Virus record (IMG/VR): IMGVR_UViG_3300022602_000036
Span: 62,001 to 126,000 of that record
DNA length: 64,000 bases
Strand: one strand, 5' to 3'
Source: a virus
Both the position numbers and the translations under genes were made by a program. Positions 7,270 to 61,573 of this stretch are shown piece after piece. Position 1 is the stretch's first letter. Each line of letters opens with the position of its first letter. The notes under the pieces were generated by a model that made no database searches, was not told where the DNA came from, and was given only the letters and a program-made list of their open reading frames with translations.

Positions 7270-7587
7270 ATGTCTAGAACACGTAGACGTAAGCGTGGCG
7301 ACCACACTGATCTAGCTTGGCAAACTAGAGAAATGATCAAAGTCCCAGGCAGATTAATTTGGGTGCCAATGGACCCAAAAACCAAGCAGTATAAACGAGT
7401 AGTAAACAAGTATCACAGTGATGCAGGCACACATAAGTTTAACAACTGTCCACAAGGATGGTGGGTTAACATGGTAATGCAAAGACCACATCGCCGTGAT
7501 GCTAAAAGAAAAATCCAAAAATGGTTGTTGGATCCAGAGTATGAAGTTATACTAAATGCTAAGGAACCACTTCCATATTGGGATTAA
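7270..7587 (+). CDS. Basic hypothetical phage protein
   Basis: 105 aa, strongly basic at the N terminus (MSRTRRRKRGDHTD) and with PHRRDAKRKIQKWL near the C terminus. This suggests nucleic-acid binding, but no family is recognised. GAGGAG precedes the ATG. It ends 13-15 nt before the tmRNA acceptor segment; the tmRNA promoter may lie inside its 3' end. Confidence 0.68.
   Translation: MSRTRRRKRGDHTDLAWQTREMIKVPGRLIWVPMDPKTKQYKRVVNKYHSDAGTHKFNNCPQGWWVNMVMQRPHRRDAKRKIQKWLLDPEYEVILNAKEPLPYWD
7525..7553 (+). promoter_or_regulatory. Possible promoter for the tmRNA gene
   Basis: TTGTTG at 7525-7530 and TATACT at 7548-7553, 17 bp apart, lie within the end of the preceding gene. The start would fall near 7560, upstream of the acceptor piece. 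Confidence 0.4.
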
Positions 7588-7626
7588 AGAATTGTTGTAT
7601 GAAGCGAGTCCAAAAACGGACAAGAC

Positions 7627-7654
7627 ACGGGTTCGACTCCCGTCGCCTCCACCA
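7627..7654 (+). ncRNA. tmRNA acceptor piece: T arm and CCA end
   Basis: 5-bp T stem (ACGGG/CCCGT) with TTCGACT loop, acceptor strand, discriminator A and encoded CCA. No matching 5' acceptor strand lies upstream, which rules out an ordinary tRNA. The partner lies downstream at 7683-7689. A short GTCC/GGAC hairpin (about 7608-7622) precedes it. Confidence 0.88.
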
Positions 7655-7739
7655 AAGCATTTTTGAAAGAGAGTTTTTCGTTGGGGGTGCCATGGTATCG
7701 ATTGACGGCTTAGTAGGCAAGTGGACAACACAGTAGGCG

Positions 7740-7856
7740 ATGACTGTAAATCAAGCAAAATCCGTAAATGCAAAAGCATCTACACTTGGTACTGTAAAAG
7801 TATCTATGGGCCGCGGTTTCCGCTTTGCTCGTGGTACAGAAGCAGTAGCTGCCTAA
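7740..7856 (+). other. tmRNA tag reading frame
   Basis: Frame MTVNQAKSVNAKAS... ending FARGTEAVAA with TAA at 7854. In a tmRNA only the part after the resume codon (about 7755 or 7770) is translated. The hydrophobic AVAA end fits a ClpA/ClpX-type degradation signal. It could also be read as a 38-aa gene from the ATG at 7740, but that ATG has no ribosome binding site. Confidence 0.65.
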
Positions 7857-7902
7857 GAAACAGCAACCACGGGGCAGTTATGCCTTGTTACCCAAAATAA
7901 CC

Positions 7903-7922
7903 AAACCCGCTTCGGCGGGTTT
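7903..7922 (+). terminator. Terminator hairpin after tmRNA
   Basis: AAACCCGC-TTCG-GCGGGTTT, an 8-bp stem with a stable TTCG tetraloop. There is no long T tract; a second small CCTCTAAAAAGAGG hairpin follows. Confidence 0.75.
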
Positions 7923-7940
7923 GCTACCTCTAAAAAGAGG

Positions 7941-7969
7941 TTGACAACAATACCAAATGATACTATAAT
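7941..7969 (+). promoter_or_regulatory. Sigma70-type promoter
   Basis: TTGACA at 7941-7946 and TATAAT at 7964-7969, 17 bp apart. It drives the two-gene operon at 8037-9757, leaving about a 60-nt leader. Confidence 0.88.
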
Positions 7970-9873: not shown

Positions 9874-11795
<1,922 letters not shown>

Positions 11796-31076: not shown

Positions 31077-31292
31077 TTGGCAAAAGAAGACGTTATAAAA
31101 CTATCAGGAACCGTAGAAGAAGTCTTAGGTAACAGTATGTTCCGTGTGAAATTAGAAAACAATCACATTGTTACCGCATATATTGGAGGTAAACTCCGTA
31201 TGCACACAATTAAGATTATCATGGGTGACGTAGTTGACGTTGAAATGACGCCATATGATTTAACCAAAGCCCGTATTACTTACAGACGATAA
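31077..31292 (+). CDS. infA: Translation initiation factor IF-1
   Basis: 71 aa, the normal IF-1 length (E. coli 72). It starts at TTG 31077 with AAGGAAAGGA upstream. [40 protein letters not shown] and [15 protein letters not shown] match bacterial IF-1 almost end to end. IF-1 is an S1-like OB fold that binds the ribosomal A site on 30S and works with IF-2 and IF-3. A phage copy could bias initiation toward phage messages, including leaderless or TTG-started ones. Confidence 0.94.
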
Positions 31293-31293
31293 G

Positions 31294-31394
31294 CGTCCAG
31301 CACCAATTTACCTTTAAGCCACATTGGCTGTGCTGTGCAAAAACAAGGAAAGTTCACAACTAGGGGTCCTTGGTAGCCTTGTTGACGACTGGAC
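31294..31394 (+). ncRNA. Candidate structured RNA between infA and sodB
   Basis: The ~120-nt gap after infA is not coding. GTCCAG (31295-31300) can pair with CTGGAC (31389-31394), closing the element. Inside, AGCAC...GTGCT (31299-31303 / 31330-31334) with CAAT/ATTG forms one hairpin. CAAGGA (31344-31349) can pair with TCCTTG (31367-31372), or AACAAGG (31342-31348) with CCTTGTT (31377-31383); these pairings exclude each other, as in a switch. I do not match it to a known riboswitch or ribozyme. Confidence 0.5.
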
Positions 31395-31414
31395 ATAGAT
31401 ATTTATGGAAAATT

Positions 31415-31960
31415 ATGTATAACTTTATTAAATGGACATTAAACGAAGGCAAGGAGCCTAAAACACTTACCCAAACTCCACTGCCTTATGATCGTGGTGC
31501 TCTAGGTAAAAGTCTAAGCAAGGCCACATTAGACTATCACTATGGTAGCCTATACAAAGGCTATGTTGATCGCTACAACAAGGGCGAAGGTGATGCAGAC
31601 TTCAACGAAGCAGGCGCTTTCTTACATGACTTATACTTCACACAATTCCGTGCGCCAAAAAGCTCAAATCTACCCGTAGGTAAAAGTCTAGAGTTAATCA
31701 ATGAACATTTTACAAGTTTTGATAAATTCAAAGAAGCTTTTGAAAAAGAAGCTATGAAGATACAGGGTTCAGGGTGGATCTATCTTTCATACCGTGGCGA
31801 GATTAAAACAATTAAAAATCACGAAGTTAGACGAGATATCGCACTGTTAGTTGACTGGTGGGAGCATGCATGGGCTCTTGACTATAAAGCAGATAAAAAA
31901 GGCTACTTAACTAATCAATGGAAAATCATTGATTGGGACATTATTAATCAAAGGATCTAA
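31415..31960 (+). CDS. Iron/manganese superoxide dismutase
   Basis: 181 aa from the ATG at 31415; upstream in-frame codons lie in the structured RNA. Metal ligands are visible: H42 (LDYHYGSLY), H71 (FLHDLYF), D147 and H151 (LLVDWWEHAW). The DYHYG start and the length resemble SodB-type enzymes. It converts superoxide to peroxide and oxygen, protecting iron-sulfur enzymes during infection. It abuts the acyltransferase gene downstream. Confidence 0.92.
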   Translation: MYNFIKWTLNEGKEPKTLTQTPLPYDRGALGKSLSKATLDYHYGSLYKGYVDRYNKGEGDADFNEAGAFLHDLYFTQFRAPKSSNLPVGKSLELINEHFTSFDKFKEAFEKEAMKIQGSGWIYLSYRGEIKTIKNHEVRRDIALLVDWWEHAWALDYKADKKGYLTNQWKIIDWDIINQRI

Positions 31961-34574: not shown

Positions 34575-34907
34575 ATGGACTCATTTGTAACTGTAAAACC
34601 TGGTGCTATTGCTAAAGTTAAAGAACTCATAGCAGAAGAAAACAATCCTAATCTCAAATTGCGTATGTTTGTTAGCGGTGGTGGATGCAGTGGATTCCAA
34701 TATGGTTTTACTTTTGAAGAAGAAACCAATGACGATGATTGGAGTTTTGACTTTGATGGTGTTACACTAGTAATAGACAGCATGAGCAGTCAATATCTGC
34801 AAGGCGCTGAAGTAGACTATACAGAAAGTCTACACGGTAGTCAATTTAGTATTAAAAATCCAAATGCGCAAACTACCTGTGGATGTGGTAGTAGTTTTTC
34901 AATTTAA
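34575..34907 (+). CDS. Iron-sulfur cluster carrier, ErpA/IscA (HesB) family
   Basis: 110 aa. The three conserved cysteines are C38 ([11 protein letters not shown]), C102 and C104 (TTCGCGSSF). A-type carriers deliver Fe-S clusters to apoproteins. They are recurrent in marine phages. AAAGGACC precedes the ATG. A role in supporting the phage radical SAM enzymes is plausible but inferred. Confidence 0.93.
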
Positions 34908-54852: not shown

Positions 54853-55710
54853 ATGGCAAACGCATATGAAATATTAGGAGTGCCTAAAGGGGCTTCTGAT
54901 TCAGACATTAAAAAGGCTTACCGCAGGCTTGCGGGCCAACATCACCCTGACAAAGGTGGTGATACAGCCAAATTCCAAGAAATACAAAATGCTTATGAAA
55001 CCCTAAGCGATCCTCAAAAACGTGCTCAACATGATAATCCAAATCCATTTGGGCACGGATTCCAAGGGCATCCAGGTGGCAGTCATTTTGAATTCCACTT
55101 TGGTGGAGGTGGTCCAGAAGACATATTCCAACAGTTTTTTAACCAAGGATTTGGCGGACATAACCCATTTCAAAGACATCAACAACCCCGTCGTAATAAA
55201 GATCTACGTGTGCAATTGACTATTAGTCTAGCCAGCACCTTAGAACAACAAAAGAAAACAATCTCAGTACAGACTACCAAAGGCGATCGTTACAATGTAG
55301 ATGTTGATATCCCTAGAGGTATTAACAATGGCACTACTATCAAGTACACTCAATTGGGTGATAACATGTTTGATACCTTGACAAGAGGTGATTTATATGT
55401 TATAATTAACGTAGAAAATGACAGTCGCTTTGAGATACATGGTATCAACCTAGTAGCTAATTTGGAAATAAACAGCATAGAAGCTATGCTAGGTGTAGAT
55501 AAAATTGTCCAAGGCGTTGATGGAAAAGAGTACGCAGTTAAAATTCCACAAGGCTGTCAATACGGTACTAAATTTGGCCTACAAGGTCAAGGCTTATATC
55601 AAATGAACACACAACATCGTGGGGATTTGATTGTTAACGTTGTAGTTAAGACTCCAGTATTATCTGAACTACAATTAAACATGCTTAGAAACATTAACAT
55701 CATTCAATAA
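54853..55710 (+). CDS. DnaJ-type co-chaperone (no zinc finger)
   Basis: 285 aa. J domain at 1-65 with the HPD motif (31-33, QHHPDKGG), a Gly/Phe-rich linker ([20 protein letters not shown]) and two C-terminal beta domains. The Cys-rich zinc finger of DnaJ is absent, as in CbpA/type II proteins. It stimulates Hsp70 ATPase; the phage has no DnaK in this window, so it would use the host's. The clpA gene follows after 23 nt with a late-type motif between. Confidence 0.92.
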
Positions 55711-55733: not shown

Positions 55734-58037
55734 TTGGCTGACATGCAAAACAATCCTGAGATAGAACACATCATTAACACTGCCTGTGTTCTAGCCAAAG
55801 ACTACAAACATGAATATGTTACACTAGAACATCTATTAATTGCCTTAATAGAATCTAAAAACTTTAACAAGTTAGTCACTGACTATGGTGTTGATGTAGA
55901 AAATCTTCTACGCGACTTATATGATTATATTGGTCGTCAAACACATCTAGTCAACGAAATTAAACCAGATCTAACCCCAATGCGTACACACAGCCTAGAG
56001 CGTGTGTTTAATCGTGCATTTACACAGGTCTTGTTTAGTGCTCGTGATCAAATGGAACCTATTGATTTATTCTTGAGCATTAGTCAAGAACCTAATAGCC
56101 ATGCAGCATACTTTATGCTCAAATGGGGTATTAACCGCAAACAACTAATTGACTTTTTTGCAGAACAAAACAGCGATCGTTTTAATCGTGCTAAGAAAGT
56201 TGAAAGTACTAAGAAAGACTTTGCTGATAAGATTCTAGCAGAATACTGCACAGACTTAAACGCACAGGTCGTAGAAGGTAAGATTGATCCCGTAATTGGT
56301 CGTGCTTATGAATTAGAAGAAATTGCACAGGTTCTAGCACGTCGTAATAAATCCAATGTACTTATGATTGGTGATCCTGGTGTGGGCAAGACTGCTATTG
56401 CAGAAGGCCTAGCATATAAGATTGTCAATGGTGAAGTACCAGAATATTTAAAACCTTACACAGTATTCAACTTAGAAATTGGCAGTTTACTAGCTGGTAG
56501 TAAGTATCGTGGCGAGTTTGAAGAAAAACTCAAAGATGTACTACACGCCCTAGGTCAAAAAGGCAACTCAATCTTGTTTATTGATGAAGCACATCAAATG
56601 CAAGGTGCTGGGTCAGGTGGCTCTAGTCAAGTAGACTTTGCTAATATGCTTAAACCAGCATTGGCCAAGGGCAAGATTAAAGTTATTGCATCAACTACGT
56701 TTGAAGAGTATACTCAATCGTTTGAAAAAGATCGTGCGCTAATGCGCAGATTCTACAAACTAAATGTAGATGAACCTACGCCAGCTGTGGCCAAAGATAT
56801 CTTGTACGGATTAAGAACACACTTTGAAAAATTCCACGGCGGGGTTATCACAGATGATGCTATTGAAGCCGCAGTGGATCTAAGTGTACGTTATCAAACA
56901 GACAAACGTTTGCCAGACAAGGCCATTGATTTGATTGACATGAGTTCAGCTAAACTTAAGATTCAAAATCCAGACTTTGTAGTTACTAAACTAGACATTG
57001 TTGATACTATCAGCAAAGCCACTAAGATTCCTAAAGAGAATTTGTTAAGTGAAAAAGCCACAGAAAGTCTAGTTAACCTTGAAGCTACAATCAAGGACAA
57101 ACTATACGGCCAAGATAGTGCTGTAGATCAAGTATTAGAAAAGATCTATGTTGCCAAAGCTGGTATGAAATCACACAACAAGCCTGTAGGTAACTTCTTG
57201 TTCCTAGGACCAACTGGTACTGGTAAAACAGAACTATGTAAACTACTCAGCGAATCGTTGAGCATGAAACTCTTACGCTTTGATATGAGTGAATATCAAG
57301 AGAAGCATGCTATGGCTAAACTTATTGGTGCTCCCCCAGGCTATGTTGGCTATGAAGACGGCAATCTAGGTGGTGGCTTATTGATCAGTGAAATTGAACG
57401 TAACCCACATGCTATTATCTTGTTAGATGAAATTGAAAAAGCACACCCAGATATCAGTAACTTATTGTTACAGATCATGGATGAGGGCTACATTACAGGA
57501 TCTAACGGTAAGAAAGCAGATGCACGTCACTGTATCCTTATCCTTACTTCAAATCTAGGTGCTGCAGATGGTGAACAAAATGCTATTGGTTTTGGTAGAT
57601 CATTGCAAAAAGAAGGCACAGATGACGAAGCGGCTAAGAAGTTCTTTAAACCAGAATTCCGTAACAGACTTGATGCTGTAGTTAAGTTTGGTAAACTTGA
57701 TAAATTGGCTATGAAGAAAATTGTTGTCAAATTCTTAAATGAATTAAATGACCTACTAGAAGAAAAGAATATCAAAGTTCGTTCATCAGAAGCCCTAGTA
57801 GATCACTTAACAGAAGTTGGATTTGATCCTGCAATGGGCGCACGCCCGCTAGCACGTAAGATTAACGAACTTATCAAAGTACCGCTAAGTAAGAAAATCT
57901 TATTTGAGCACATAGAATCTGGTAGTGTAGTTACCGCTGATTACAGTGAAGATGTTGTTAAATTTATTGTAATTCCGCCTGCACTTGATCTATTAGAAAA
58001 CAAAACCGTTGACGAAAACGGCTACATTGTAGCATAA
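55734..58037 (+). CDS. clpA: ClpA-type AAA+ unfoldase
   Basis: 767 aa from TTG 55734 (AGGA 7 nt upstream). Two AAA+ modules: Walker A GDPGVGKT (213-220) and B LFIDEA (281-286), then GPTGTGKT (492-499) and B ILLDEI (562-567). The N domain is a Clp_N repeat. There is no middle coiled coil, which excludes ClpB, and the ClpP-docking loop IGF is at 618-620 (NAIGFGRS). It unfolds and feeds substrates, including tmRNA-tagged proteins, to ClpP. The length compares with E. coli ClpA (758). Confidence 0.93.
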
Positions 58038-60737: not shown

Positions 60738-61133
60738 ATGAAACCATCAGAATTTATTAAAGAAGAATTTGACAGCAAAGAATACAATGATGAAGCAGGT
60801 ATGGTAGAAAACAACCTTGTAACTATCATGCGTTCATTAGTAGACTTGGCCAATCACATCAAACACGATGACAATCTACCTGAATGGTGCCAAGAAAAAA
60901 TCGCCGCAGTTAAGGGTATGATGGTTAGTGTTAGTGATTATATTGTCAGTCAAAAATCATTAGGTATTGATCCTAAAGTAGACCAAGTATCAGAAGATGC
61001 CAGTGGCGGTGGTACATCAAGCGGTGGTATTGCTACTACTCCTATGGGTGGCATGGCTAAACGTAGCCAAGTAGGTAGCTTGTTTGGTGGCACTTACCAA
61101 CAACCTAAAAAAAGCAAGGCTAAAAAGAAATAA
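60738..61133 (+). CDS. Conserved phage protein
   Basis: 131 aa. Helical N-terminal two thirds (MKPSEFIKEEFDSKEYNDEA ... VTIMRSLVDLANHIKHDDNL) followed by a Gly/Ser-rich stretch and a Lys-rich C terminus (KKSKAKKK). I recall similar proteins in T4-like phages near the Dps gene; function unknown. It overlaps the next ATG by one base. Confidence 0.66.
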   Translation: MKPSEFIKEEFDSKEYNDEAGMVENNLVTIMRSLVDLANHIKHDDNLPEWCQEKIAAVKGMMVSVSDYIVSQKSLGIDPKVDQVSEDASGGGTSSGGIATTPMGGMAKRSQVGSLFGGTYQQPKKSKAKKK

Positions 61134-61573
61134 TGGATAAGTTTTCAACGCAGTTAAAGATTGCTTTTGCTAGCCAATATGCGTTTGCTATCAAAGCACA
61201 GAACTTTCACTGGAACGTGGAAGGTCCAGAGTTCTATCAACTGCATTTGTTGTTTGAAACAATCTACAACGAAGTCTACGGTGCCGTGGATGATTTTGCA
61301 GAAAATATCCGTAAGATCAAAGCCTATACTCCAGCAAGCCTAGAACGTTTTTCATCATTGACCGCAGTTGATGATGAACTAGCAGTTTTAGATCCACAGG
61401 CTATGGTAGCAGAATTATTGGGCGATGCTGAAAAAATGCAAGAAATTATGAAAGTGTTGTTTGTTGAAGCTGAAAGTCTTGGGCATCACGGCCTAAGCAA
61501 CTTCCTAGCAGATCGTCAAGATGCATTTGCTAAACACGCTTGGTTCTTACGTGCAACACTTAAAGGTAACTAA
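61133..61573 (+). CDS. Dps/ferritin-like protein
   Basis: 146 aa. NFHWNVEGPEFYQLHLLFET, then YNEVYGAVDDFAENIR carries the ferroxidase-centre residues of Dps (H, D, E). Dps cages store iron and protect DNA from peroxide. No long DNA-binding tail is seen. It fits with the SOD and ErpA genes as an iron/oxidative-stress set. Confidence 0.88.
   Translation: MDKFSTQLKIAFASQYAFAIKAQNFHWNVEGPEFYQLHLLFETIYNEVYGAVDDFAENIRKIKAYTPASLERFSSLTAVDDELAVLDPQAMVAELLGDAEKMQEIMKVLFVEAESLGHHGLSNFLADRQDAFAKHAWFLRATLKGN

Follow-up and report, generated by a model that had tools for sequence, protein, structure and literature searches.

The window analysed here, a 64,000-nt stretch of a 149 kb phage record, contains infA (IF-1; 31077..31292, plus strand; Pfam PF01176, E 7.6e-24) and sodB (Fe/Mn superoxide dismutase; 31415..31960, plus strand; Pfam PF02777, E 1e-22). 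A T4-type DNA polymerase and clamp loader were found in this phage. The gap between infA and sodB of this freshwater T4-type phage is the site of a small, folded, conserved RNA. This structured RNA occupies 31295..31394 on the minus strand, measured from one strand of helix P1 to the other, with its 5' end at about 31394 and its 3' end at about 31295. infA lies outside the RNA and is convergent with it, and sodB is divergent from it. Besides infA and sodB, the window carries a set of stress and translation genes (9874-11795, 34575-34907, 54853-55710, 55743-58037, and 61133-61573) that includes a Clp-type ATPase (phrog_4871), a Dps-like protein (phrog_3636), and genes that, from reading their translations, we take to be GroES/GroEL-like, IscA-like, and DnaJ-like. 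A tmRNA gene is present at 7539-7947, where both Rfam beta_tmRNA and tmRNA_permuted scored above threshold and ARAGORN made the same call; a tmRNA match was also seen in six of 10 related large contigs, four of them above threshold.

Homologues were collected with pattern scans that were not conditioned on sodB and with a sodB-anchored scan, and two covariance models (R1 and R2) served as confirmation. R1 matched the window at 31288-31407 on the minus strand with 120.8 bits, and the 149 kb record holds no second copy. The RNA was likewise present once in each of 15 large contigs, and contigs without the RNA at sodB had no copy at other places either. The family comprises 84 IMG/VR contigs when counted over the scan lists, and some of these contigs represent a single virus recovered in several samples. 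There were 53 distinct RNA sequences in the main set and several more from a later scan. The element is 99-111 nt long in the relatives, and the distance from P1 to P1 is 99-103 nt in 44 of 47. Identity between members is as low as 48%, and the window member is 60-83% identical to the others. Most members have stops in all frames, and the RNA is non-coding. The earlier note had placed the element in the infA-sodB gap. This gap was absent in most of 50 infA relatives from IMG/VR; one of the 50, L005, carried a diverged form of it in which both stems had compensatory changes.

Searches outside this family gave little. The covariance models did not bear out the pattern matches seen in 19 bacterial contigs, and the element was in none of 200 genomes from the same order as one of these contigs. 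Two weak R1 matches were dismissed, one in a contig that is present in several copies (E 2) and the other in a contig (E 0.4) where the stretch appears to hold a tRNA. Pseudomonas phage Callisto, one Vibrio phage, and one freshwater phage have no such element around their sodB genes. When three members were compared with cultured phages by BLAST, and the window member with plasmids, the only matches were short ones of 19-43 nt that we attribute to chance. The Rfam search that the earlier note had proposed also returned nothing: no Rfam 15 family, riboswitches and self-cleaving ribozymes included, reached the gathering threshold at the element in the window, L119, or 12 other loci, and a relaxed search (E 10) had one chance snoRNA (E 6.9) as its sole match. 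A literature search of openly accessible papers found nothing matching the element or a sodB-linked phage RNA. We take the RNA to define a new family of small, structured RNAs in phages.

Folding of the window sequence by itself was uninformative, with energies no better than those of shuffled sequences on either strand (z of -0.04 on plus and -0.49 on minus). Because of this and the blank Rfam result at the element, the homologues were decisive. Pair statistics were calculated on 47 distinct sequences for the 24 pairs of P1, P2, a pseudoknot, and P4, leaving out P3, which was misaligned by MAFFT. Over these pairs, 97.1% of cells were paired as compared with a shuffle mean of 89.9, and 18 of the 24 pairs had changes on both sides where the shuffle mean was 7.2. 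The covariation score was 0.309, whereas shuffles gave 0.169 and slid partners reached no more than 0.064, so that sliding destroys the signal. It is the homologues that establish the fold; the window alone proves nothing. We also applied a tree-based null with a purpose-written, APC-corrected G statistic and 100 simulated alignments, which is distinct from R-scape. With this null, column pairs 37-115 in P2 and 27-65 in the pseudoknot (both E=0.00) and 17-122 in P1 (E=0.01) ranked within the first four of 6555 column pairs. Pairs 16-123 in P1, 85-91 in P4, and 28-64 in the pseudoknot were suggestive at E 0.10-0.36, and one pair outside the model, 57-69, also had E=0.00. Covariation supports P1, P2, the pseudoknot, and hairpin P4, and P3 is a fifth, variable helix. 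Covariation in homologues was the test that the earlier note had itself put forward for a structured RNA, and these 47 sequences provide it.

The closing stem GTCCAG/CTGGAC described in the earlier note is present at 31295-31300 and 31389-31394 and belongs to P1. On the minus strand, the 5' strand of P1 (GTCCAGTC, 31387..31394) pairs with its 3' strand (31295..31302), with the six outer pairs Watson-Crick in the window and all eight pairs changed on both sides among relatives. The 5' strand of P2 (CCAA, 31370..31373, minus strand; CCGA in 20 of 47 relatives) pairs with TTGG (31303..31306, minus strand), as supported by covariation and alignment. P2 alternates between CCAA/UUGG and CCGA/UCGG, and in L158 its first pair is replaced by U-A. 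One P2 pair is A-U in 27, G-C in 19, and G-U in 1, with E=0.00 under the tree-based null. The inner pairs of P2 join CC (31364..31365, minus strand) to GG (31311-31312) and are C-G in 46 and U-A in 1. The two parts of P2 are separated by a conserved GGAY/YRAA internal loop that could contain stacked purine mismatches. P3 in the window pairs GTTGTG (31355..31360) with CACAGC (31332..31337), both on the minus strand. We judged this helix sequence by sequence, and it re-forms in most members with another sequence and register (ACTACG/CGTAGT, GTCTAG/CTAGAC, ATCACT/AGTGAT, and others). P4 (AGCC-AATGT-GGCT, 31317..31329, minus strand) is the hairpin AGCC(acatt)GGCT that the earlier note had correctly identified, and its stem changes among GCC/GGC, GCU/AGC, and GUC/GAC in relatives. 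In a subfamily (L082, L088, and L092), a longer GUAG...CUAC hairpin takes the place of P4 with the rest of the RNA kept.

The pseudoknot joins ACAAGG at the P1/P2 junction (31377..31382, minus strand) to CCTTGT in the P3 loop (31343..31348, minus strand), the strand that takes part in the 27-65 covariation. It is 98.9% paired with changes from CG to UA, AU to UA, and GC to AU and the reverse. Reading the plus strand, the earlier note had seen CAAGG at 31344-31348 as a segment with two mutually exclusive pairings. One of these, with CCTTG at 31377-31381, is this pseudoknot and was kept at 94-100% with compensatory changes. The alternative, with TCCTTG at 31368-31373, is not conserved: the central pair of CAAGGA/TCCTTG is standard in 4% of relatives and the two outer pairs in 66-83%. 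Because the second pairing is absent in relatives, there is no switch, and the CAAGGA/TCCTTG pairing is due to chance in the window member.

When read on the minus strand, the modelled pairs contained 40 G.U cells in 12 pairs versus 3 A.C cells in 2 pairs. This asymmetry places the RNA on the minus strand. RNAalifold agrees, with energies of -18.7 on minus and -11.6 on plus, as does a late promoter box upstream on the same strand. This wobble-pair test matters; read on the wrong strand, the RNA resembles a sodB riboswitch. The box is a predicted T4-type late promoter, CATAAATA (family consensus NNTAAATA), at 31400..31407 on the minus strand, 5 nt before P1 in the window. Its TAAATA was invariant in all 47 aligned relatives, and the spacing from TAAATA to P1 was 4 nt in 36, 5 nt in nine, 6 nt in one, and 8 nt in one, so that the register of promoter and P1 is fixed at 4-5 nt in 45 of 47. 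In the 64-kb window, NATAAATA occurs 18 times on the plus strand and four times on the minus strand, following the strand of the genes. In T4, the late promoter box is described as lying roughly one turn of the helix ahead of the transcription start (PMC2988020). From the spacing of the box, transcription would start at or within 1-2 bases of the first P1 nucleotide. No late sigma factor gp55 was recognised among the candidate ORFs scanned. A T-run of at least four was present near the 3' end of the RNA in 30 of 49. P2, P3, the late promoter, and the correct strand were all absent from the earlier note.

Wherever a contig extends far enough, the RNA lies next to the start of sodB, its one constant neighbour; the exception is L213, in which about 500 nt separate the two. 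Of 27 sodB-anchored members, 24 have the RNA divergent from sodB, and it is on the opposite strand in the window too. In the other three it is co-directional and lies between the late promoter box and sodB. On the sodB tree these three group together as a single clade (99/86, one change); orientation to sodB flipped once, and promoter and RNA moved together. By contrast, the gene 3' of the RNA varies and is often convergent: it is infA in the window, what we take from its sequence to be an nrdA-like gene in L065 and L085, and others elsewhere. With one flip relative to sodB and varied 3' neighbours, the conserved structure is independent of the neighbouring genes. Many sodB-bearing relatives do not have the RNA, including L103, whose sodB is nearest to that of the window and is abutted by infA. 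Presence of the RNA is patchy on the sodB tree with 8-9 changes, which is fewer than in all shuffles. At sodB loci without the RNA (L104, L123, L153, and many more), the sodB ATG is often about 5 nt after a RATAAATA box, so that sodB mRNA would be almost leaderless there. A gene that, from its sequence, is presumably a UvdE-like endonuclease often adjoins sodB and the RNA (L073, L075, L092, and others).

These observations bear on what kind of element this is. One reading offered in the earlier note was a metal- or redox-sensing leader of sodB on the plus strand that switches between two pairings. The location before sodB and the ability of CAAGG to pair twice in the window sequence agree with such a leader, but the G.U evidence points to the other strand, the second pairing is missing from relatives, orientation to sodB flips, many sodB loci have no RNA, and no downstream gene is conserved. 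We consider this explanation extremely improbable. A leader on the minus strand, acting in cis as a riboswitch-like or regulatory 5' UTR for the next co-directional gene, or for sodB in the inverted clade, is unlikely rather than implausible. In many relatives a co-directional ORF begins 1-70 nt past the RNA, in five sodB itself is directly next, and in L092 and L114 nothing but a ribosome-binding site separates the RNA from that ORF, so that a leader role is possible in those two. However, the window and more than 11 relatives have a convergent gene after the RNA, the downstream genes are unrelated, and several of the co-directional genes have their own late-promoter-like box after the RNA.

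A self-cleaving ribozyme, which the earlier note had also listed, would fit the compact pseudoknotted fold, the invariant core nucleotides, and the location in a phage, phages being known carriers of ribozymes. However, none of the ribozyme families in Rfam matches, we recognised no conserved context for a cleavage site, and, with the promoter abutting P1, cleavage at the 5' side would leave hardly any leader. We consider a ribozyme very unlikely. An element acting as DNA, whether inverted repeats, a protein site, or a recombination site, is scarcely credible; the stems are inverted repeats and a comparison of L003 with the window shows a precise gain or loss of the element between infA and sodB, but wobble pairs that differ between the strands, a pseudoknot, and a promoter on one strand are what an RNA would be expected to show. 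The last option in the earlier note, an independent small RNA, is supported by the RNA having its own promoter box and varied 3' neighbours. Together, these data indicate that the element is most probably a stand-alone small structured RNA gene on the minus strand (31394-31295) of a family of large freshwater T4-type phages. This level of confidence applies to the stand-alone, minus-strand structured RNA; the binding mechanism is outside it.

For this stand-alone RNA, the late promoter would fire at or next to the first base of P1, and the transcript would end just past P1, often at a U-rich stretch. In the fold conserved by covariation, P1 closes the structure, P2 stacks above P1 across the GGAY/YRAA loop, the P3 loop forms the pseudoknot with the P1/P2 junction, and P4 is a hairpin. 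The RNA may accumulate late in infection as a compact species of about 100 nt. Its most likely mode of action, to which we give about an even chance, is that the folded RNA binds a protein, the ribosome, or a ligand. Action as a base-pairing regulator seems rather less likely. In our judgement, binding is favoured because it is the folded core that is conserved and we saw no invariant seed left exposed. The constant linkage to sodB hints at a shared stress role. A broader proposal, which we regard as possible but doubtful, is that these RNAs belong to a class not described before in phages, with a pseudoknotted core that either is catalytic or binds a specific target of the host or the phage, and that their function is coupled to that of the superoxide dismutase they stay beside even after inversion.

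Few structured phage RNAs besides tRNAs are understood. This family offers a well-supported fold, likely late expression, a constant neighbour, and natural knock-outs in the form of sodB loci without the RNA, and its function is therefore directly testable. THF and ZTP riboswitches contain a junction-to-loop pseudoknot, and the RNA described here is similar in that a hairpin loop pairs back to a helical junction. It differs from them in the order of elements and in having no expression platform, no fixed downstream gene, and no Rfam match. As a comparison, T4 late promoters have a gp55-dependent TATAAATA box (PMC2988020); the NNTAAATA box is like these, and the motif also occurs upstream of genes here. 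Unlike T4 late promoters, it is predicted to drive an RNA of about 100 nt and no virion gene, and gp55 was not identified among the ORFs scanned. Leaders of wcaG, manA, and glnA and an abiF sRNA, all Rfam families, have been reported in the T4-like cyanophage S-CREM1 (PMC9964418). The RNA in the window differs from these in its sequence, in its sodB locus, and in being the leader of no fixed gene, but it resembles them in being small, structured, carried by T4-type genomes, and defined by covariance models.
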